64,000 nt of DNA from contig NZ_JANHAV010000009.1 in NCBI RefSeq assembly GCF_024464655.1, positions 62,001-126,000 on the forward strand. Direction: 5' to 3'. The stretch is from Halobellus inordinatus (GTDB lineage: Archaea; Halobacteriota; Halobacteria; Halobacteriales; Haloferacaceae). The notes beneath the pieces are model-generated. The model was not told the DNA's origin. It worked only from the letters and a program-made list of their open reading frames with translations, and searched no databases. Each line of letters starts with the position of its first letter. The stretch's first letter is position 1. A program made the position numbers and the translations under genes. Of this stretch, positions 2,912 through 12,117 are shown one piece after another.

Positions 2912-4243
2912 TTATCGGCCGCGCCGGGCGAGCACGACGCCGATTCCCGAGCCGACGGCAGCGAATCCTGCGAGCGTCGCAAACAGCGCTGTCGGGGTCG
3001 CATAGGTCAGAATCGCGCCGGCGACAGTACCGCCGAGCGCGCCGACGCCGAACACGCCGAGGTACGTGAAGCCGTACGAGAGGCCGCGCGTGCCGGCCGG
3101 CGAGTACTCCGCAACGGTCGCCTGGTAGAACGGCTGGACGAGAAAGAGCGCACAGCCGAGGATCGCACCGACGGCCAAGAGTGGTGCGAGCCCCGCGTTC
3201 GCGGCGGGAAGGAACACGACCGCGAGGACGGCTAGCAAGCCGAAACCGCCCGCCAATCCGTATTCGACCGGCATCCGATCGGTGAGTTTGCCGCCGAGAT
3301 ACTGGCCGAAGACGCCGACGATCAGCAGTCCAGAGTAGAAGTACCGCTCAGGATTGAGTGAGCGTCCCGATCCGGGGGGAATGCCCAGGGCGTCGGTGAG
3401 GAACGGCGGGAGTAGCGACGTCAGTGGGATTGGTGCGAACGCCGGGAAGGATTCGAGAAGGTTCGGGAGGAAGGTGAGGACGCCGCGGTAGTAGAGTCCC
3501 GACGCCATCACGACGACGAAGACGAGCGCGAACGCCCCTGCGAAGAGCCGCCGCGTCTCGGAGGCGAACTCCGTGAACGAGGCGACGCCGCCTTCGGTTC
3601 TGCTGTCGCCGTCGGATCCCCCTCCACCGTCGGGGGCCGTGGTATCAGATGCGACGGCCGCAGTCTCGTCGAACCGCGCACGGATCGCGTACGCGCCGGC
3701 GACGAGCGCCGGCACGGCGAGAACGACGGCGACGATCGTCCAGTCCACGAACAGGAGGAGAATCGCCGTCAGCAATGGTCCCAAGCCGGTTCCGACGTTC
3801 CCGGCGATTCCGTGGTAGGCGAACCCCGTGCCGCGCTCTTCGACGCCTTTCGAGAGGAGCGTCAGGCCCGCCGGGTGGTAGACGCTCGCGGCCGCGCCCC
3901 ACAGGAGCAGCGCGAGCGTGACCACGAGGAGGTTCGGCGCGACGCCGAGGAGGACGAACGAGCCAGCCATCCCGAACAGACAGAGCGTGATGAGTCGCCG
4001 CGAGCCGATTCGATCGACAAGCACGCCCCCCGGAAGCGCGCCCACGCCGAAGAGACCGTATCCCGCGGTCACGACCAGTCCCAGCGTGGCCGCCGTCACC
4101 TCGAACTCGGCGACGCCGAGCGAGAGCACGTCGAACTCCGTGAGCCAGATCGAGACGAAGATCGGGATCGAAAGCTCGTAGGTGTGGACCATCCCGTGGG
4201 CGAGCATCACCAACGCGACGATCGACCGATCGTTCGAGTTCAC
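2912..4243 (-). CDS. MFS transporter
   Basis: A 443-residue Major Facilitator Superfamily permease, probably a proton-coupled exporter or uptake protein in the cytoplasmic membrane. The first half has the motif-A loop GGVLVDRIGSRR between helices 2 and 3, and the second half has the related GGKLTDRMPVEYG. About 12 helices are split by a hydrophilic loop of about 30 residues (TTAPDGGGGSDGDSRTEGG). The start codon is GTG at 4243; the next in-frame Met (residue 13) would cut into helix 1. The substrate is unknown. Its upstream region contains overlapping inverted repeats (see 4281-4332). Confidence 0.88.
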   Translation of the reverse strand: MNSNDRSIVALVMLAHGMVHTYELSIPIFVSIWLTEFDVLSLGVAEFEVTAATLGLVVTAGYGLFGVGALPGGVLVDRIGSRRLITLCLFGMAGSFVLLGVAPNLLVVTLALLLWGAAASVYHPAGLTLLSKGVEERGTGFAYHGIAGNVGTGLGPLLTAILLLFVDWTIVAVVLAVPALVAGAYAIRARFDETAAVASDTTAPDGGGGSDGDSRTEGGVASFTEFASETRRLFAGAFALVFVVVMASGLYYRGVLTFLPNLLESFPAFAPIPLTSLLPPFLTDALGIPPGSGRSLNPERYFYSGLLIVGVFGQYLGGKLTDRMPVEYGLAGGFGLLAVLAVVFLPAANAGLAPLLAVGAILGCALFLVQPFYQATVAEYSPAGTRGLSYGFTYLGVFGVGALGGTVAGAILTYATPTALFATLAGFAAVGSGIGVVLARRGR

Positions 4244-4280
4244 GTCGTACGTTCCGGGGACCGGTTAGTTCAACGCTCCG

Positions 4281-4332
4281 GTGTGGGACACGCTGCATCG
4301 GTTAGTGTGTTGCTGTGTCACACTAAGACACA
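4281..4332. promoter_or_regulatory. Cluster of overlapping inverted repeats upstream of the MFS gene
   Basis: The stretch has GTGT-GGG-ACAC (4281-4291), AGTGTG-N9-CACACT (4304-4324) and TGTGTC-N7-GACACA (4314-4332). They lie 38-89 bp before the MFS start. Dyads of this size in a promoter region are consistent with operator sites; the role is inferred. The first 11-mer recurs at 47138-47148 before the IclR gene. Confidence 0.4.
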
Positions 4333-4507
4333 GGCAAAAAACGTACGAATCGTACAATCCGGCGACCCCATTATTTTGGTTCTGAGTGCCTCTGCGTCGT
4401 GACTTGCCTTCATAACTTATGTGAAACCATCCAAACAGCGACGACAAATATATCAGTTAGAGATGGGAAACAATTATATTCCCTACTTCCGTAGTATATA
4501 TTGTATT

Positions 4508-4744
4508 ATGACAGGGTACTACGACTACGTTCTCGGACTCATTCCACTCGCACTGTTCGGCCTGACCGGCGGCCTTGTGCAGACCAGCCTCTCTCTCACC
4601 CAAGCAGTGCCCATCGCGGCCGCCGTCGCGGCAGGAATCATCGGACACGCACTCTTCGTCCGCGCGCCGGTTTCCACCGGTGCCCGATCCAGTTTCGACG
4701 GGACCGACACCCGAAAGAACGTTCGGCTGCAGAACGCCGACTGA
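4508..4744 (+). CDS. Small two-helix membrane protein
   Basis: A 78-residue protein with two hydrophobic helices (about residues 7-26 and 34-54) and a short basic, polar tail. I place the start at 4508 (MTGYYDYVLGLIP) because the residues upstream in the same frame are polar, low in GC and include promoter-like A/T-rich DNA. Similar short proteins beginning with MTGYYD are, to my recollection, widespread and unnamed in haloarchaea. Function is unknown. The 80-bp hairpin repeat begins six bases after its stop. Confidence 0.7.
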   Translation: MTGYYDYVLGLIPLALFGLTGGLVQTSLSLTQAVPIAAAVAAGIIGHALFVRAPVSTGARSSFDGTDTRKNVRLQNAD

Positions 4745-4750
4745 ACGTTC

Positions 4751-4830
4751 AGAGGGATTCTCGTAACTGTCCGGATATACTCGCCGTGCCGTCCGGCGAG
4801 AAATCTACGAGGGCTTACGATACTCCCTCT
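4751..4830 (+). repeat. 80-bp hairpin repeat, copy 1
   Basis: An element with 16-bp terminal inverted repeats (AGAGGGATTCTCGTAA at the left, 14/16 matched at the right). Inside are two 9-nt unpaired segments (CTGTCCGGA and TACGAGGGC) and a second, inner stem around the 7-nt loop TGCCGTC. It shares length and layout with the copies at 55814 and 61373. It starts six bases after a stop codon and could act as a terminator-like hairpin as well as a mobile remnant. Confidence 0.75.
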
Positions 4831-4944
4831 CAGTTCCCTGTCGCATCGCCGTTTCTTGTACGATACGTCCCGCGTATTCGTTTCTGAATCCCGCACCTCA
4901 CAGTTTCCCGCACGTTCTTACCGCTGGCCGTCGAACGCGGTCGT

Positions 4945-5943
4945 ATGACTGAGACGCTGTTTCTGGAAAGTTCGGACGTCGACGGCCTCGCGACGCCCGC
5001 GGAGTTCGTCGACGCCGTCCGCGACGCGTACCGACAGCGCGGCGAGGGGGCTCCCGCCGAACCGCGAACGAAACTCGGCAACGCCGATCCACCGGGCTTT
5101 CTCACGACGTATGCGGCGATCCTCCCGGACACCGGCGCGATGGGCGGCTATATGTACACCGCCGGCTTCGGAGCCGAGGACGCGTGGTTCACGACGCCGA
5201 TCTTCGATTCGGAGTCCGGCGAACCGCTCGCGCTGCTCGACGGCGCGAGTATGAATCCCTTCAAGACCGGTGCGACAGGCGCCGTCGCGGCCGACGAACT
5301 GGCACGCGAGGACGCCAGCTCCGCGGCGATCATCGGCAGCGGCGCACAGGCGCGCGGCCAACTCCGTGCGCTGGCGACGGTCCGCGATCTGGAGACCGTC
5401 TGGGTCTACTCGCCGACGAAAGAGCACCGCGAAGCGTTCGCCGGCGAGATGGACCGCCGACTCGACGGCAGCGTCGCCGCCGTCGCCTCGGCCGCCGCGG
5501 CCATCGAGGGCGCCGACATCGTGGTGACTGCGACGAACGCCAGCGGACCGGTCTTCGACGGCGACGCGCTCGAAGAGGGGACCCACGTCACCGCGATGGG
5601 TCAGTACAACCCCGAGAAGCGCGAACTCGACGCCGCGACCATCGAGCGCGCGAAGTACGTGCCCGACCTCCGCGACCGCGCGTTCCAGGACGCCGGCTCG
5701 TTCCTCCACGCACTCGAGGAAGGCGTCGTCGACGAGGACCACGTCCACGCCGAGCTGGGCGACGTCGTCGCCGGCAACGCCCCCGGCCGGGAGTCCGACG
5801 AGGAGATCACCGTCTTCGACAGCGGCGGAACCGGTATCGAGACGGTCGCCGGCGCGTACCTGCTCTACGAGAAGGCGACGGAGGCCGGCCTGGGAGAGAC
5901 GATCGACTTCGCGCCCGGCAGCCAGGCGCTCACTGGCGAATAA
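4945..5943 (+). CDS. Ornithine cyclodeaminase / mu-crystallin family dehydrogenase
   Basis: A 332-residue NAD(P)-dependent enzyme. The N-terminal half has the substrate-binding MNPFKTGATGAVAADEL (about residues 103-119), equivalent to the RTGAxxGVA region of the family. The Rossmann motif is AAIIGSGAQARGQLRAL (about 128-144). Residues after 180 include VVTATNASGPVFDGDALEEGTHVTAMG, also family-typical. Family members are ornithine cyclodeaminase, archaeal alanine dehydrogenase and related imine reductases, and the sequence alone does not separate them. It appears monocistronic. Confidence 0.88.
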   Translation: MTETLFLESSDVDGLATPAEFVDAVRDAYRQRGEGAPAEPRTKLGNADPPGFLTTYAAILPDTGAMGGYMYTAGFGAEDAWFTTPIFDSESGEPLALLDGASMNPFKTGATGAVAADELAREDASSAAIIGSGAQARGQLRALATVRDLETVWVYSPTKEHREAFAGEMDRRLDGSVAAVASAAAAIEGADIVVTATNASGPVFDGDALEEGTHVTAMGQYNPEKRELDAATIERAKYVPDLRDRAFQDAGSFLHALEEGVVDEDHVHAELGDVVAGNAPGRESDEEITVFDSGGTGIETVAGAYLLYEKATEAGLGETIDFAPGSQALTGE

Positions 5944-5963: not shown

Positions 5964-7031
5964 TTACTGCAGCCGATAGCGCAGCAGCGCCGCGATGCCG
6001 CCCAGATTCCGGAGTTGCTGTCCGGGGTCGAACTCGCCGGAGAAGACGGTGACCTCGCCGCCCTGCCGTTCGACCGACTGGATGACGTCGTTGACGTCGA
6101 CGTCCCAGTCGCCGTCGCCCTGCCGTTCCTGTCGGAGGCGGTCGTCGACGACGAGCAGTTCTTCGACGGCGCCGAACTCTGCGGCCTCGGCGACCTCGTC
6201 GATCCCGTAGGCGACTTTCTCGCCGGTCGCGATGCCTTCCATCAGATCGTCGAGGAGTTCGGCCTCCTTCGAGATCCGGGTCTGCGTCTGGACTTCGTCG
6301 ACGGCGCCGCGTTTCAGCACCTCGTGGACGCCGCGGTCGCCGACGCCCGCCGTGTCGACGACGGTGAGCAGGTCGGCGACGTCGGGGTGGTTCTCCTCGA
6401 TGTAATCCCGTGCGTCCTGCTTCGTGAAGCCCGGACCGGCGAGGATGATCGCGTCGACGTCCATCCGCGAGAGCGCCTTCCCCAGCTCGGCGAACAGCTC
6501 CGAGCGCGGGCGGGCGTACTCGCCCTTGCCGGTCGGCGCGGTGAACGAGAAGCGCTCTTCGGTGCCGTACTGTGCGACCGTGTGAATGTGTGCTTCGCCT
6601 TCCTCGACGGTCGCGATGGCGACGTCGGCGTTCTCGGCGGCCTCTTCGGCCTCCTCGATCCGTTCGACCTGGTCCGGCTTGAAGTGCTTCTCGATCGTGA
6701 TCTCGTCGTGTTCCTCGACGTTGAGCGTGTGGTGGTGCCCGAGCTGGTCCTCGCGCGAGCAGTCGACGATCTCGCCGCCGACTCGAAGACGGTTCGCGAA
6801 GCGCGCGAACTCGACGTCGTCGACTTCGATCGTCACGAACAGATGCTCGCGCTGGCCGCCCGTGTCCCGGAGGTTCTCGTCGTCGCGCTGAATACGGCGC
6901 GTGGTGTCGCCGGAGACGAGATCGCCGGATTCGAGGACGTGCGAGAGGTGCCACAGGTCGTCGACGTTCTCGGGGACGAGCGTCATCCGCTCGCGCCCCT
7001 CCTCGCCGCGGCCGCGGCTCGAAATTCGCAT
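5964..7031 (-). CDS. pelA: mRNA surveillance protein pelota (aPelota)
   Basis: A ribosome-rescue factor that resembles eRF1 but lacks the GGQ loop. With aEF1A and ABCE1 it splits ribosomes stalled without a stop codon. The 355 residues have the N-terminal Sm-like domain ([22 protein letters not shown], with the TTRR segment nearby). The central domain is [19 protein letters not shown], and the C-terminal domain is [26 protein letters not shown]. Length is normal for the archaeal family. RqcH, another rescue factor, lies 2.9 kb away on the same strand. Confidence 0.96.
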
Positions 7032-7065: not shown

Positions 7066-7761
7066 CTATAGCGACCCGCGCTGGGCGTCCGCCAGTCCGT
7101 CGGCGAACCCGCGACCGAACAGGTAGTACGTCACGACCTGCACGTAGAAGAGGGCGAAAATCCCGACGACGACGATACCCAACAGGCTCGCGATAGTCCC
7201 GAGCACGAGCCCGACGACGACGGCGAGCACCCACGCGATCAGGTAATCGGAGGTCGTCGCCGCCGCGAGCACCGTCGAGACGTCGAAGGCGGCCGCCATC
7301 GAGTCCTCGCGGGCGAAGTTCGCGAACATCGCCGGCGCGACGTAGCCGAGCAGCAGCGCGAACGCGACGAAGGCGAAGAACGCGACGACGGTCAAGAGCC
7401 CGCCGAGTCCGCCGAGACCGCCGTCCGATCCGGTTCCGACTACGGGGCCGGCGCCGGACCCGATCGCGGAGCCGAATCCCGTGACGATCCCGACGACGAA
7501 CATCGCCACGACGACGACGAGCGAGACGGCGATGTTGACGCCGATCAGTTTCAGGCCGTCGACGAACAGGTCGCCCCACTCGTCGAAGGCCGGCGGGGTG
7601 GCGTCTCCGCGGGTCGTGCCGCGCAACACGCGAACGTAGTACCCCTGAAGGAGCGGAATCGGGAGAACGAGCACCGAGAGGACGCTCAACAGTCCCCCGA
7701 TGAGTATCGTGCGAAGCCAGTCGTCGCTATCGAGCGGATAGTGGAGGGCATCCGACAGCAT
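7066..7761 (-). CDS. DUF4013 membrane protein (first of two)
   Basis: A 231-residue integral membrane protein of the DUF4013 family. The start at 7761 ([23 protein letters not shown]) is chosen because it aligns with the paralogue at 8979-9692 (MIQDSLQYLRNDENWVTTVLIGG). The longer frame upstream is polar and unlike the family. Conserved features are [32 protein letters not shown], then about four hydrophobic helices separated by Gly-rich loops. Function is unknown. The two paralogues flank the HiPIP-like lipoprotein gene. Confidence 0.85.
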
Positions 7762-7927
7762 CGACTCGGAGGAATCAGTGGAGAAAGGTAAGTTTAGGGA
7801 ATCGTCGGCCTCGTCGAGACTTTCAGAGCGTGACCAGACCCCCACGCTAGCGCCGTGAGCCCAGACCGATTCAGTGCTTTCTGTCAGGGACCGATAGGCC
7901 GAGTGGAGTTCTCCACTCTGGATGGCT

Positions 7928-8710
7928 CTATTCCAGTTCTTCGCTGACAGCTTCCCAGGCCGCACACCAGTCCTCGACAGCGATGTACCCTTCAACCGCT
8001 GCGCACGCGCCCCATCCGTCGCCGTTCTTGTCAGGAATGAACTCCGCACAGTTACCACAGGACATCCCAGGCTGGGCTACGCCGTCGGCGATTTTCTCGA
8101 CGGACTCGCCAAAGCTCACGTTCGCCTGGGCGAGGAGTTCGTCTGGGTCGCGCTCTTCTCCGGCCTGGGAGATCGCCGTCCGGTATTCGGTAGGGACCTC
8201 GGCCGTCGCGAGTTCGTCCTCGCTCATCCCTTCGGGAACCTCGGGTTCCGGTAGCTCCTCCCAGATGGTACACCAATCAGCGCCACCGATATAGCCCTCG
8301 ACCGCGGCACAGGCACCGAACCCGTCGCCGTTCCTGTCAGCGATATATTCACTGCAATTCGCGCAGCACCGCCCGGGTTGGTGGGCCGCGTTCTCTAGCG
8401 CCTCGTCGTACTCCGAGAACTGGACGTCGACCTTGATCTGGAGTTCGTCCGGAGTGCGCGTTTCACCGCCGATCGAGTCCGCCGTCCGATACTCCTGAGG
8501 CACCGGGCCGTGCTCGAACTCGTCCGCCGAGACGCCCTCGGGGAGCTCTTCGTCCGTATCAGTCTCCCGATCCCCGTCCTCGCCATCTGCCGGTTCGGTT
8601 GGAGATGACTCTTGTTCGGGCGTGCCCGCACAGCCAGCGGCACCAACAATCGCTGAGCTTCCTGCCAGCTGTAAAAACCGTCTCCGTGACTCTGATTGAC
8701 GCCCTCTCAT
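7928..8710 (-). CDS. Tat lipoprotein with two HiPIP-like Fe-S domains
   Basis: A 260-residue exported protein. SRRRFLQLAG (residues 8-17) is a Tat signal and GAAGC (Cys27) a lipobox, so it is probably tethered to the outside of the membrane. After an acidic linker come two copies of one domain (about 57-150 and 159-252), each with VPxEYRTAxSxxGxxRxPDEL. Each then has C-x2-C-x14-C-x12-C: Cys116, 119, 134, 147 and Cys218, 221, 236, 249. The end of each (C-x6-I-x3-[DE]-W-C-x2-W) closely resembles the high-potential iron-sulfur protein signature, with an acidic residue in place of the usual Gly. It is inferred to carry two [4Fe-4S] clusters for extracytoplasmic electron transfer. Confidence 0.75.
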   Translation of the reverse strand: MRGRQSESRRRFLQLAGSSAIVGAAGCAGTPEQESSPTEPADGEDGDRETDTDEELPEGVSADEFEHGPVPQEYRTADSIGGETRTPDELQIKVDVQFSEYDEALENAAHQPGRCCANCSEYIADRNGDGFGACAAVEGYIGGADWCTIWEELPEPEVPEGMSEDELATAEVPTEYRTAISQAGEERDPDELLAQANVSFGESVEKIADGVAQPGMSCGNCAEFIPDKNGDGWGACAAVEGYIAVEDWCAAWEAVSEELE

Positions 8711-8978
8711 AATGTGTATTATTAATCATCCAAGTGGTAAAGCAACGAGGGTTGGTATCTCAGGTAGTATATTAAAATAAACTAATTTATGGTGATTGAT
8801 TGGACAATCACAACTAGTCGGGGGAGCCTGAGTCGGTCCGACGGGGCGGAAGAAGTTCGCACCCAAGATACTGCAGCACTCCCGAAAACGACCGCCGGCT
8901 GCGGGTTTCAAGAGCAGATCCGTAGCGAAAGTCAGAACGCGGTGTGAGAGCCGACGTTGGGTGTCGAAGTTCCGGCTC

Positions 8979-9692
8979 TCAGACGGCCGCTTGCTCGTCG
9001 AGGGAGTCGCTCTCGCGCATCTCGACGTCGCGGATCTCGCCCCACGCCTGGCCGATGAGGTAGTACGCAGAGACCGCGGCGTAGAACCCGAGGAATCCGC
9101 CCGCGAGAAGCCCGAGTAGCGGAATCACGTTCAGCGCGCCAGCGACGAGGCTGGCCGCGATGATGAGCGCGAAGCCGTACACCCACGCGGTCGCGTACGT
9201 GCCCGATGTCAGCACGGGACGGAGTTCACTGATCGAGAACGCGGATCCGAGTTGATCGGTCTGCGCGAGGTTCGAGATCGCCGCCGGGACGACGTACGCC
9301 GCCAGCAGGCTCAACACGAGCGCGAGTAGGCTTCCCAGGAGAATCCCTGCCATTCCGAGGCCGACGAGGCCCGCAGAGTCGGATCCGCCGCCCACGACGA
9401 ACGAGAAGATCCCGCCGCCGACGACGACCGCCGCGATGATCCCGGGGATCAGCCCGTAGACGAAGACGACGACGAACGCCTTGAGCCCGTCAGTGAACAG
9501 GTCACCCCACTCGTCGAACACTGGCGGCTGTTCCTCGCCGTGCATCGTCCCGCGGACGACCCGTACCAGATATCCGAGGACCAGAAGCGTCGGGACGATC
9601 AGGACGCCCAGCAGACTGAGGATCCCCCCGATGAGGACAGTCGTAACCCAATTCTCGTCGTTTCTGAGGTACTGCAGTGAGTCTTGTATCAT
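8979..9692 (-). CDS. DUF4013 membrane protein (second of two)
   Basis: A 237-residue paralogue of the protein at 7066-7761, sharing [33 protein letters not shown] and the same order of hydrophobic helices. I use the ATG at 9692 (MIQDSLQYL). A GTG three codons upstream is possible but less like the paralogue. Function is unknown. The 268 bp between it and the HiPIP-like gene (8711-8978) is A/T-rich near 8711-8800 and otherwise featureless, so the genes probably have separate promoters. Confidence 0.83.
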   Translation of the reverse strand: MIQDSLQYLRNDENWVTTVLIGGILSLLGVLIVPTLLVLGYLVRVVRGTMHGEEQPPVFDEWGDLFTDGLKAFVVVFVYGLIPGIIAAVVVGGGIFSFVVGGGSDSAGLVGLGMAGILLGSLLALVLSLLAAYVVPAAISNLAQTDQLGSAFSISELRPVLTSGTYATAWVYGFALIIAASLVAGALNVIPLLGLLAGGFLGFYAAVSAYYLIGQAWGEIRDVEMRESDSLDEQAAV

Positions 9693-9911
9693 AATGATCA
9701 CCGAGCGTGGCTGTATGCTGCGCCGTGACCGTCGACGGGCGTCCCGTCGCGGCTGTGACGCAGAACAGCCGATTTACTCCAAGCGTACAGTACGATGTCA
9801 TCAAAGATAAATATAGACCACGTACGGAGAGTACGCGCGGCTTACCCCCGAGGCCGGTGATAACAACGGTCACAGGGCGGATTCGGGACTGCCTGCCGTA
9901 CGAAAATCGCG

Positions 9912-12020
9912 CTACTCGACGAGTTCGCTCCCGCCGGGGGGCAGGAACTCCTGGATCTTGTCCGGGGTCGCGACCTTTCGGAGGAACTTCTGGTCGGTGA
10001 AGCGTTCGCGGAACTCCCGGTAGAGCATCTTCGCGGCGTCGTTCTGGGCGTAGCGACCGGGCCGGACGCGAATCGACGTCTCGACCTGCTCTTCGATCGC
10101 CGACGGCGGGCCGCCGAGGACCTGGGTGACGCCCTCACACTGGATGCCGATCGCGACCTCGGCAGCGACGTCTCTGAAGTACGTCCGGTCGCCGCGGATG
10201 ACGAACGAGCCCTTCTCGATGTACTCGCCGGACTCGGGCGTCTTCGAGACCTGATCGGGCGTGACCATATACGCCTCACCGGCGTAGCGGCCCTCCTTCC
10301 AGATCGACGAGTACGAGACCGCGAACTGGGCGGCCTCCTGTTTCGTCGATTCCGGGAACTCGACCGCCTCGGATGGCTCCGAGGGCCCGGTCGCCTTCAC
10401 GACCGTCACCGGGCCACCGTGGGCCTGCGTGTGGAAGAACAGGTCGTGTTTGTTCAGATACTTCGTGACGATCTCCTCGTTCTGGTCGGCGTTGCGGCCG
10501 CCGATGACGAGAAAGCCGTCGGAGGTGTGGAACCACCGGAAGCGCTCGTACCACTGCTCGGAGGTGCGGATCGGGATCGACTCCATCTCGAGCCAGTCGC
10601 GGTCTTCGGGTTCGGTTTCCTCCTCGGCTTCGTCTTCGTCCTGGTCGTCGGCTTCCCACTCCTCGCGCCGTTGTTTCACGGCTTCGAGTTCCTCGCGGGT
10701 GTTCTCGATCGCGGCGAGTGCGCCCTCTTTCTTCTCTTCGACGCGCTTGGCTTCGGTGTAGAGCCGGTCGGCGTTCTTCTCGACGCCGGTGTCCACGTTG
10801 ACCTCCACCTCGGTGTCGTCGAGTTGGATCGTGACCGTTCCCTCGGCGCCGTCGACGTCGACGACCGCTTCGGCCGCGGGGATCCCCTGCTCGGCTCCCG
10901 CCGCGAGCGTCTCGCGGATCTCGTCCCAGGGGACGCTGTTCTCGCGAGCCTCACGGACGGTCGAGAGCACCTCGTCGACGAGGTCGTAGTTCGCATACAG
11001 CAACTCGGCGCGACGGCGCTCGGCGTCGGCCTGCTCTTCGAACCCCTCGATCGCGCCCTCCTGCTGGTCGATGATCCGCTTTTTCTTCTCGATCTCCGCC
11101 TCGAAGTCCGGGCGCTCGCGACCCGTCTCCTCCGGCTCGTCGTCCTCCAGTTCGAGCCGGTAGAAGTACTCGTCGAGCGCGTCGTTGAAGGTGTCGTACG
11201 CCTCGCTGTCGAGTCCCTTGCGCTCGTGTTCCTCGAGCGGGAACGGCGTCGCGTCGACGACCGCGCCGTCGTCATCCGTGTAGACGCGGGGGTCGAAGTC
11301 GCCCGAGCGGAGTCGCGTCCGGAGGTCCTCGATCGCGTCGTGGAGCGCGCGGTACTCGTCGTCACCGGCCTCCTCGATCGGGATCGTCTTTTCGACGCCC
11401 GCGCGGGTACAGAGTTCCTCGGCGTAGAGGCCGCCGAGGTTCAACTGCGTCGCGAGCGTCCGCACCACGTCGGTATCGGAGTCCTCCATCCGCCGGGCGA
11501 GCGCGTCGTAACTGACCGTGAGCGGATTGAGGCGCGAGGAGGGGAACTCGTACTGCGAGCCGGGGGCGACCGTGCGTGATTTGAGCCTGACCGTCTCGAG
11601 GCTCTGGACGACTTCGCCCGTCTCGTCGAGGACGGCGACGTTGCCCTGGCCGAACAGTTCGACGACGATGCGCGTGTTCTCGTCGCCGCGCTCGAACTCG
11701 AAGACGAGGATGCGGTCGAACTCGAACTGCTCGACGCCCGCGAAGTCGGCGCCCGACAGTCGGTTCCGCAGCATCATCGCGAAGTTCGGCGGTCGTCCGG
11801 GTGCGTCGGGGACGCGTTCGGGGTCTGCGACGTGTGCCCGCTTGACGTCGCCGACTTCGAGGATGAGTTCCACCCGGCCGCGGTCGAAATCGCGCATCCG
11901 GAAGCGGAGCAGGTCGTCGCCGTAGAGGTAGGCCTTGTCGACCTTCGCTCCCTCGTACCGGTTCAGTTCGGTGACGAGGGCGGCCAGGTCGACGCTCGTG
12001 AGCTCCCGCTTCGGGTCCAT
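9912..12020 (-). CDS. rqcH: Ribosome quality control protein RqcH (NEMF/NFACT family)
   Basis: A 702-residue NFACT protein. It binds 50S subunits that still carry peptidyl-tRNA and, in studied relatives, directs C-terminal tailing of stalled peptides. The N-terminal NFACT domain begins MDPKRELTSVDLAALVTEL and includes FEFDRILVFEFERGDENTRIVVELFGQGNVAVLD. HhH and long charged coiled-coil regions fill about residues 290-480. The C-terminal NFACT-R domain has FLVIGGRNADQNEEIVTKYL and DLFFHTQAHGGPVTVV. The start is at 12020; the extra 12 upstream codons are not family-like. Confidence 0.93.
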   Translation of the reverse strand: MDPKRELTSVDLAALVTELNRYEGAKVDKAYLYGDDLLRFRMRDFDRGRVELILEVGDVKRAHVADPERVPDAPGRPPNFAMMLRNRLSGADFAGVEQFEFDRILVFEFERGDENTRIVVELFGQGNVAVLDETGEVVQSLETVRLKSRTVAPGSQYEFPSSRLNPLTVSYDALARRMEDSDTDVVRTLATQLNLGGLYAEELCTRAGVEKTIPIEEAGDDEYRALHDAIEDLRTRLRSGDFDPRVYTDDDGAVVDATPFPLEEHERKGLDSEAYDTFNDALDEYFYRLELEDDEPEETGRERPDFEAEIEKKKRIIDQQEGAIEGFEEQADAERRRAELLYANYDLVDEVLSTVREARENSVPWDEIRETLAAGAEQGIPAAEAVVDVDGAEGTVTIQLDDTEVEVNVDTGVEKNADRLYTEAKRVEEKKEGALAAIENTREELEAVKQRREEWEADDQDEDEAEEETEPEDRDWLEMESIPIRTSEQWYERFRWFHTSDGFLVIGGRNADQNEEIVTKYLNKHDLFFHTQAHGGPVTVVKATGPSEPSEAVEFPESTKQEAAQFAVSYSSIWKEGRYAGEAYMVTPDQVSKTPESGEYIEKGSFVIRGDRTYFRDVAAEVAIGIQCEGVTQVLGGPPSAIEEQVETSIRVRPGRYAQNDAAKMLYREFRERFTDQKFLRKVATPDKIQEFLPPGGSELVE

Positions 12021-12117
12021 ACCCCTGCGTTCTCGCGGGGGAAGGAAAAGGCGCACGCTCCGAGCGCCGACGGTGAAGCGATTCGCGCATCGGAGAATCG
12101 GCGACCGAGTTCCGTCG

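Follow-up and report, generated by a model that had tools for sequence, protein, structure and literature searches.

The window, by which we mean the whole 64,000-nucleotide stretch of Halobellus inordinatus DNA analysed here, carries on its minus strand a gene for a 260-residue protein with two high-potential iron-sulfur protein (HiPIP) domains, termed D1 and D2, behind a predicted Tat lipoprotein signal. The gene, its parts, and its surroundings are as follows, in window coordinates.

About 7767 to 8978, no strand: inserted segment that is missing in congeners and comprises the HiPIP gene and an AT-rich region upstream of it (comparison with the empty site in L161 and other congeners; GC3)
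8979 to 9701, minus strand: DUF4013 gene, upstream flank of the insertion, given as context (PF13197, 135.5 bits)
7066 to 7758, minus strand: DUF4013 gene, downstream flank of the insertion, given as context (PF13197, 118.9 bits)
7928 to 8710, minus strand: tandem HiPIP Tat lipoprotein gene, 260 amino acids (open reading frame; PF01355 above the gathering score in each half)
8630 to 8710, minus strand: predicted Tat signal and lipobox (SRRRFLQLAGSSAIVGAAGC), residues 1-27, lipid attachment at Cys27 (direct sequence reading; lipobox in relatives)
8510 to 8629, minus strand: acidic linker, residues 28-67, of variable length among relatives (distance from lipid Cys to first ligand, against the constant inter-domain spacing)
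8255 to 8509, minus strand: HiPIP domain 1 (D1), residues 68-152, ligands C116, C119, C134, and C147 (PF01355, 23.1 bits; D1 clade support 100/99)
8366 to 8368, minus strand: extra Cys115, adjoining the first D1 ligand (conserved in 28 of 29 D1 domains, with Ser at this position in all 29 D2 domains)
7949 to 8203, minus strand: HiPIP domain 2 (D2), residues 170-254, ligands C218, C221, C236, and C249 (PF01355, 28.3 bits; D2 clade support 100/99)

The open reading frame starts with ATG, and its reading confirms the two identically spaced four-cysteine units of the preliminary description, with C-x2-C-x14-C-x12-C in D1 and D2 alike. Both units terminate in C-x6-I-x3-D-W-C-x2-W. The ending had earlier been given as Asp or Glu before Trp-Cys; the motif stands, but both copies have Asp and neither has Glu. 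The Tat/lipobox signal proposed at the same time is likewise borne out by the N-terminus, which contains a twin-arginine motif, a hydrophobic stretch, and a lipobox Cys closing G-A-A-G-C, with Cys27 as the predicted lipid site. The lipobox of the window protein is weak, having Ala at position -3. A stronger form, L/V-[SATG]-GC, occurs in 27 of the 28 other proteins of the main tandem clade, which comprises 29 proteins with three Haloferax-type two-domain cases counted apart. Most of them have L-S-G-C, and in the one remaining protein, L041, the reading frame used showed no lipobox. From these motifs, the protein is predicted to be a Tat lipoprotein. Its architecture of two domains plus a lipobox differs from the usual single soluble HiPIP domain.

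The HiPIP domain is a well-known electron carrier of purple bacteria, and its defining chemistry is a [4Fe-4S] cluster that uses the 3+/2+ couple at +50 to +500 mV. When the halves are scored alone against PF01355, D1 reaches 23.1 bits and D2 28.3 bits, both above the curated gathering cut-off of 22 bits, and the whole protein scores 39.4 bits; all 16 aligned relatives match the family as well. The two halves share 55% identity over 99 residues (E = 2e-38). A single-sequence search of solved structures matches HiPIPs only. When a profile built from 46 domains is compared with the PDB, HiPIPs top the list, with Rhodothermus marinus (R. marinus) 3h31 as the best match (E = 2.4e-6, cysteines aligned) and the halophilic 2hip and 1pih at E = 1.4e-5. 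The four cluster cysteines are invariant in 29 of 29 D1 and 29 of 29 D2 domains and align with the ligands of solved HiPIPs. Since each half passes PF01355, the halves align with each other at E = 2e-38, and the architecture recurs in 28 other proteins, the match lies far beyond chance. The HMM comparison that the preliminary description had proposed as a check thus came out positive for each half, as did the match of the domain profile to solved HiPIPs. By their sequences, both halves are true HiPIP domains with all eight ligand cysteines.

PROSITE-type HiPIP patterns have Gly before the aromatic residue that precedes the fourth Cys, as a detection signature rather than a definition of the family. 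This Gly is absent from both window copies, which have Asp. Since 43 of 78 haloarchaeal PF01355 proteins with one domain lack it too, the Gly criterion does not decide HiPIP membership. The AlphaFold model of the full-length protein is poor (pLDDT 46.8). With D2 modelled alone (pLDDT 66.9), Foldseek ranks two HiPIPs first, both as weak matches (E 2.7 and 3.4), and the only chain with a VIA Z of at least 2 is the R. marinus HiPIP 3h31, again weak at Z 2.3. The NCBIfam model of the iron oxidase Iro does not match the tandem protein, and its matches to single-domain HiPIPs all stay below the cut-off. No RNA families were found in the HiPIP gene region. A [4+2]-cyclase iron-sulfur protein was set aside as a comparison, HiPIP being named in that paper only in a reference (PMC11236979).

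HiPIPs had been described at the outset as single-domain proteins of purple bacteria, which proves too narrow, since 84 of 391 genomes of the haloarchaeal class (about a fifth) carry PF01355. In a phylum-wide sample it occurs in 7 of 295 genomes, and only one of these, with a broken frame, falls outside the haloarchaeal order. Every PF01355 match was fetched and rescanned with a haloarchaeal domain model, resulting in 121 distinct HiPIP proteins: 89 with one domain, 32 with two, and none with three. The tandem form is present in 21 of the 84 genomes, representing three families, and its carriers include Natrinema limicola, N. hispanicum, Natronomonas gomsonensis, Halolamina pelagica, and Salinigranum salinum. 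The 28 other distinct haloarchaeal proteins with this architecture show orthologue identity of about 60-65%. The tandem HiPIP architecture is conserved yet scattered among haloarchaea. A single-domain HiPIP is co-resident in 11 of 21 tandem genomes vs 60 of 370 others (p = 0.0003, kinship ignored). Single-domain plasmid copies carry the RefSeq-type annotation "high-potential iron-sulfur protein."

A full-text literature search returned nothing on haloarchaeal HiPIP function, and a search for tandem or fused HiPIPs, as judged from titles and abstracts, nothing on natural tandem ones; subscription papers lie mostly outside the coverage of both searches, which makes these absences only suggestive. 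The two-domain, lipid-anchored, fixed-spacing HiPIP architecture is apparently undescribed. A transcript study of Haloferax mediterranei includes the HiPIP gene HFX_6278 among the regulated genes (PMC10779274).

A tree built from 151 domains separates the 29 D1 and the 29 D2 domains into a clade each, both with support of 100/99. Because D1 and D2 are separately monophyletic, the duplication is old and preceded the spread of the protein through three families. The two-domain proteins of Haloferax (L049, L137, and L143) have near-identical halves with a longer and variable spacing of 114-119 residues, and their domains group with single-domain Haloferax relatives in the tree. These relationships suggest that the Haloferax tandem probably arose by an independent and recent duplication. 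A tree constrained to one duplication shared by the main clade and Haloferax is 9.1 log-likelihood units worse, which does not amount to rejection (p-AU 0.25).

In all 29 main-clade proteins, the first ligands of D1 and D2 stand exactly 102 residues apart, whereas the stretch from the lipid Cys to the first ligand of D1 ranges from 80 to 102 residues among those with a recognisable lipobox. The two domains also differ from each other in fixed ways. The residue before the first ligand is Cys in 28 of 29 D1 and Ser in every D2; in the window protein this extra Cys (C115) had been overlooked in the preliminary description. At the positions of Tyr19 and Trp60 in Allochromatium vinosum (A. vinosum) HiPIP numbering, aromatic residues shield the HiPIP cluster. 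The Trp60 equivalent is Phe in 29 of 29 D1 domains and Trp in 29 of 29 D2 domains. The Tyr19 equivalent is Phe in all 29 D1 domains, and in D2 it is Leu in 23, Phe in five, and Val in one. The pattern is reversed in the single-domain haloarchaeal HiPIPs: 75 of 78 keep Tyr as the Tyr19 equivalent, and the residue at the Trp60 position is mostly aliphatic. Judged by these residues, the oxidised cluster might be less stable in D2 copies that have no aromatic at the Tyr19 position.

Asp precedes Trp-Cys in 57 of 58 tandem domains. It had been taken earlier for the mark of an acidified haloarchaeal branch, which is overstated. Among 78 single-domain haloarchaeal HiPIPs, the residue before the aromatic is Gly in 35, Asp in 22, and Ala in 21, and since Asp is found there too, it is a subfamily trait rather than a mark of acidification as such. 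The window protein has a pI of 4.05, and low pI is typical of salt-in proteins generally. Between ligands 2 and 3 lies a D-x-N-x-D loop, whose three defined positions are kept in 58, 57, and 58 of the 58 tandem domains and which is also common in single-domain HiPIPs. This loop resembles partial Ca-binding loops, and its role is perhaps cation binding.

The history of the gene in H. inordinatus can be read from its surroundings. In this genus, a pair of DUF4013 membrane-protein genes is flanked by the ribosome-rescue genes Pelota and RqcH/NFACT, found in the window at 5964-7031 and 9912-12056. In 8 of 12 congeners the DUF4013 genes are adjacent, separated by 84-190 bp, with RqcH (NFACT) on one side and Pelota on the other; in the window the gap between them is 1.22 kb. 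The insertion, bounded by alignment with the nearest congener (L161), measures about 1.2 kb. None of the 12 congeners has a HiPIP gene at the DUF4013 site, and the congeners of the class sample yield no PF01355 match at all. The GC3 of the HiPIP gene is 0.70 vs 0.84-0.89 for its neighbours. The insertion ends contain no repeats and no mobility genes. The simplest reading of these comparisons is a single-gene acquisition by lateral transfer.

At 25 tandem loci, clustering of the neighbours showed that only common genes of the CBS, ABC, and universal-stress types recur in more than one genus. In Halolamina, a cysteine-desulfurase-like gene (Fe-S assembly, identified by reading) adjoins the tandem HiPIP gene (L038, 6474-7778; L041, 6312-7616; L046, 6543-7730), and it was not seen at the tandem loci of other genera. 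A bypass of complex III is not supported. Across 391 genomes, 23 of 84 with a HiPIP have no cytochrome b (PF13631) vs 76 of 307 others (p = 0.67), and the figures for the tandem form are 8 of 21 vs 91 of 370 (p = 0.20). A link to nitrous oxide respiration is not supported either, as NosZ (PF18764) occurs in 5 of 21 tandem genomes vs 113 of 391 overall and is absent from the window genome. With no conserved neighbour and no association with complex III absence or NosZ, no partner is indicated.

Single-domain HiPIPs occur in several other contexts. Eight lipoproteins (L004, L019, L023, L027, L062, L064, L093, and L122) combine one HiPIP domain with a C-terminal NosL-type copper-chaperone domain, which scores 48.1 bits against PF05573 in L023 and has its Cys motif in all eight fusions. 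NosZ is absent from seven of the eight genomes, and several of the fusion genes lie near a SCO-family gene (identified by reading). This points to a role of the fusions in oxidase copper-site assembly rather than in N2O reductase. One genome has a NosZ gene (G172:C1:2247568) at a distance of about 1.5 kb from the gene for a divergent single-domain HiPIP (L130, G172:C1:2245999). In the Natrialbaceae-like clade f4 (L061, L068, L080, L082, L094, L095, L099-L101, L108, L110, L112, L115, and L119), the single-domain HiPIP gene adjoins a gene for a conserved protein of about 448 residues with a Ferredoxin_N domain and several 4Fe-4S dicluster domains. At L101, for example, the HiPIP gene (4685-5110, plus strand) is divergent from the multi-cluster ferredoxin gene (3078-4424, minus strand), and a cupredoxin gene is next. 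The gene pair is a possible electron-transfer module. At L110 (4637 onward, plus strand), HiPIP and a cupredoxin-like domain form one fused protein; the cupredoxin-like part has the copper-site motif C-x2-H-x4-M and scores 19.2 bits against Copper-bind (PF00127), below the cut-off of 21.2.

We consider it likely that the tandem protein acts as a lipid-tethered two-cluster HiPIP electron carrier or relay on the cell surface. Tat would export the protein folded, and the lipid on Cys27 would anchor it to the outer face of the membrane. Each HiPIP domain displayed there would hold one high-potential [4Fe-4S] cluster, and the two clusters may differ in potential and exchange electrons. On this tether the protein would pass single electrons, as a carrier or relay, between membrane complexes, halocyanin-type copper carriers under the S-layer, or both. 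The carrier role is suggested by association, as single-domain relatives are fused to a cupredoxin-like domain (L110) or located beside a multi-cluster ferredoxin. In R. marinus, a HiPIP is the periplasmic electron acceptor of alternative complex III (PMC5928083). At the level of sequence, the earlier description of a membrane-tethered two-cluster protein is supported, and the "short electron wire" that accompanied it is plausible, given the invariant inter-cluster spacing of 102 residues in 29 proteins. A more specific proposal, which we put slightly below even, is that a conserved and subfunctionalised HiPIP module with two clusters in fixed geometry complements or replaces halocyanin as an extracellular iron-sulfur relay of haloarchaea and moves from lineage to lineage as a cassette of one gene.

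Alternatively, the two domains could be independent carriers on one tether with no electron exchange, so that duplication would double capacity or raise the local concentration near the membrane. Tandem duplication within the same subfamily has seemingly been repeated in Haloferax with a spacing of 114-119, suggesting that copy number alone can be selected. However, constant spacing and fixed D1/D2 differences in 29 proteins from three families would be unexpected for interchangeable beads; they argue instead for a defined two-cluster unit and hence for inter-cluster electron exchange, which leaves independence rather unlikely. It is improbable that the HiPIP fold was recruited to a non-carrier role, for example in sensing redox state or metals, in supplying reductant for the assembly of copper sites, or in the structure of the cell surface. 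The HiPIP-NosL-like fusions, mostly in genomes without NosZ, do show metal-delivery contexts, and the tandem gene has no respiratory neighbours, but the tandem protein contains no extra domain and retains all cluster ligands in both halves of 29 proteins. Least of all would we expect the cysteines to bind zinc or form disulfides in place of an Fe-S cluster, for although Cys115 is an extra cysteine in D1, disulfides are frequent in exported proteins, and one marginal zinc-finger match lies below its cut-off, PF01355 is the only family above its cut-off in the protein and the top PDB matches of the profile are HiPIPs.

What is known here is the HiPIP domain; what is apparently new is the combination of two such domains, a lipid anchor, and fixed spacing in one haloarchaeal protein. 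Such a natural two-HiPIP fusion would offer a simple system for measuring inter-cluster electron transfer in molar salt. Halocyanin is the accepted one-electron carrier of haloarchaea, and the passage of electrons in haloarchaea that lack complex III is listed as unresolved in an account whose main text does not contain the word HiPIP (PMC8305020). Because the presence of HiPIP is not associated with the loss of complex III, the tandem HiPIP alone does not solve that question.

Compared with known systems, the tandem protein has the four-Cys pattern in common with the HiPIPs of PF01355 (A. vinosum 1cku, Halorhodospira halophila 2hip, and R. marinus 3h31), as well as Gly-x-Cys at the third ligand and the aromatic cage positions. 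It differs from them in having two domains per chain, a lipid anchor, Asp rather than Gly before Trp-Cys, a D-x-N-x-D loop between ligands 2 and 3, and Phe or Leu as the Tyr19 equivalent. The single-domain haloarchaeal HiPIPs, including a paralogue in the window genome (L001), resemble it as predicted Tat lipoproteins with a D-x-N-G-D-G loop and a PF01355 match over the cut-off, but have one domain, retain Tyr at the Tyr19 position, and are mostly aliphatic at the Trp60 position. Nearest in the tree is the subfamily of the Haloferax chromosomal HiPIP, which shares the x-D-W-C and x-E-G-Y motifs; unlike the main clade, its members are mostly single, and its tandem copies (L049, L137, and L143) are near-identical with a longer linker. 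Halocyanin is likewise an exported, membrane-anchored one-electron carrier, the role predicted for the tandem HiPIP, but it is a copper cupredoxin of unrelated fold.
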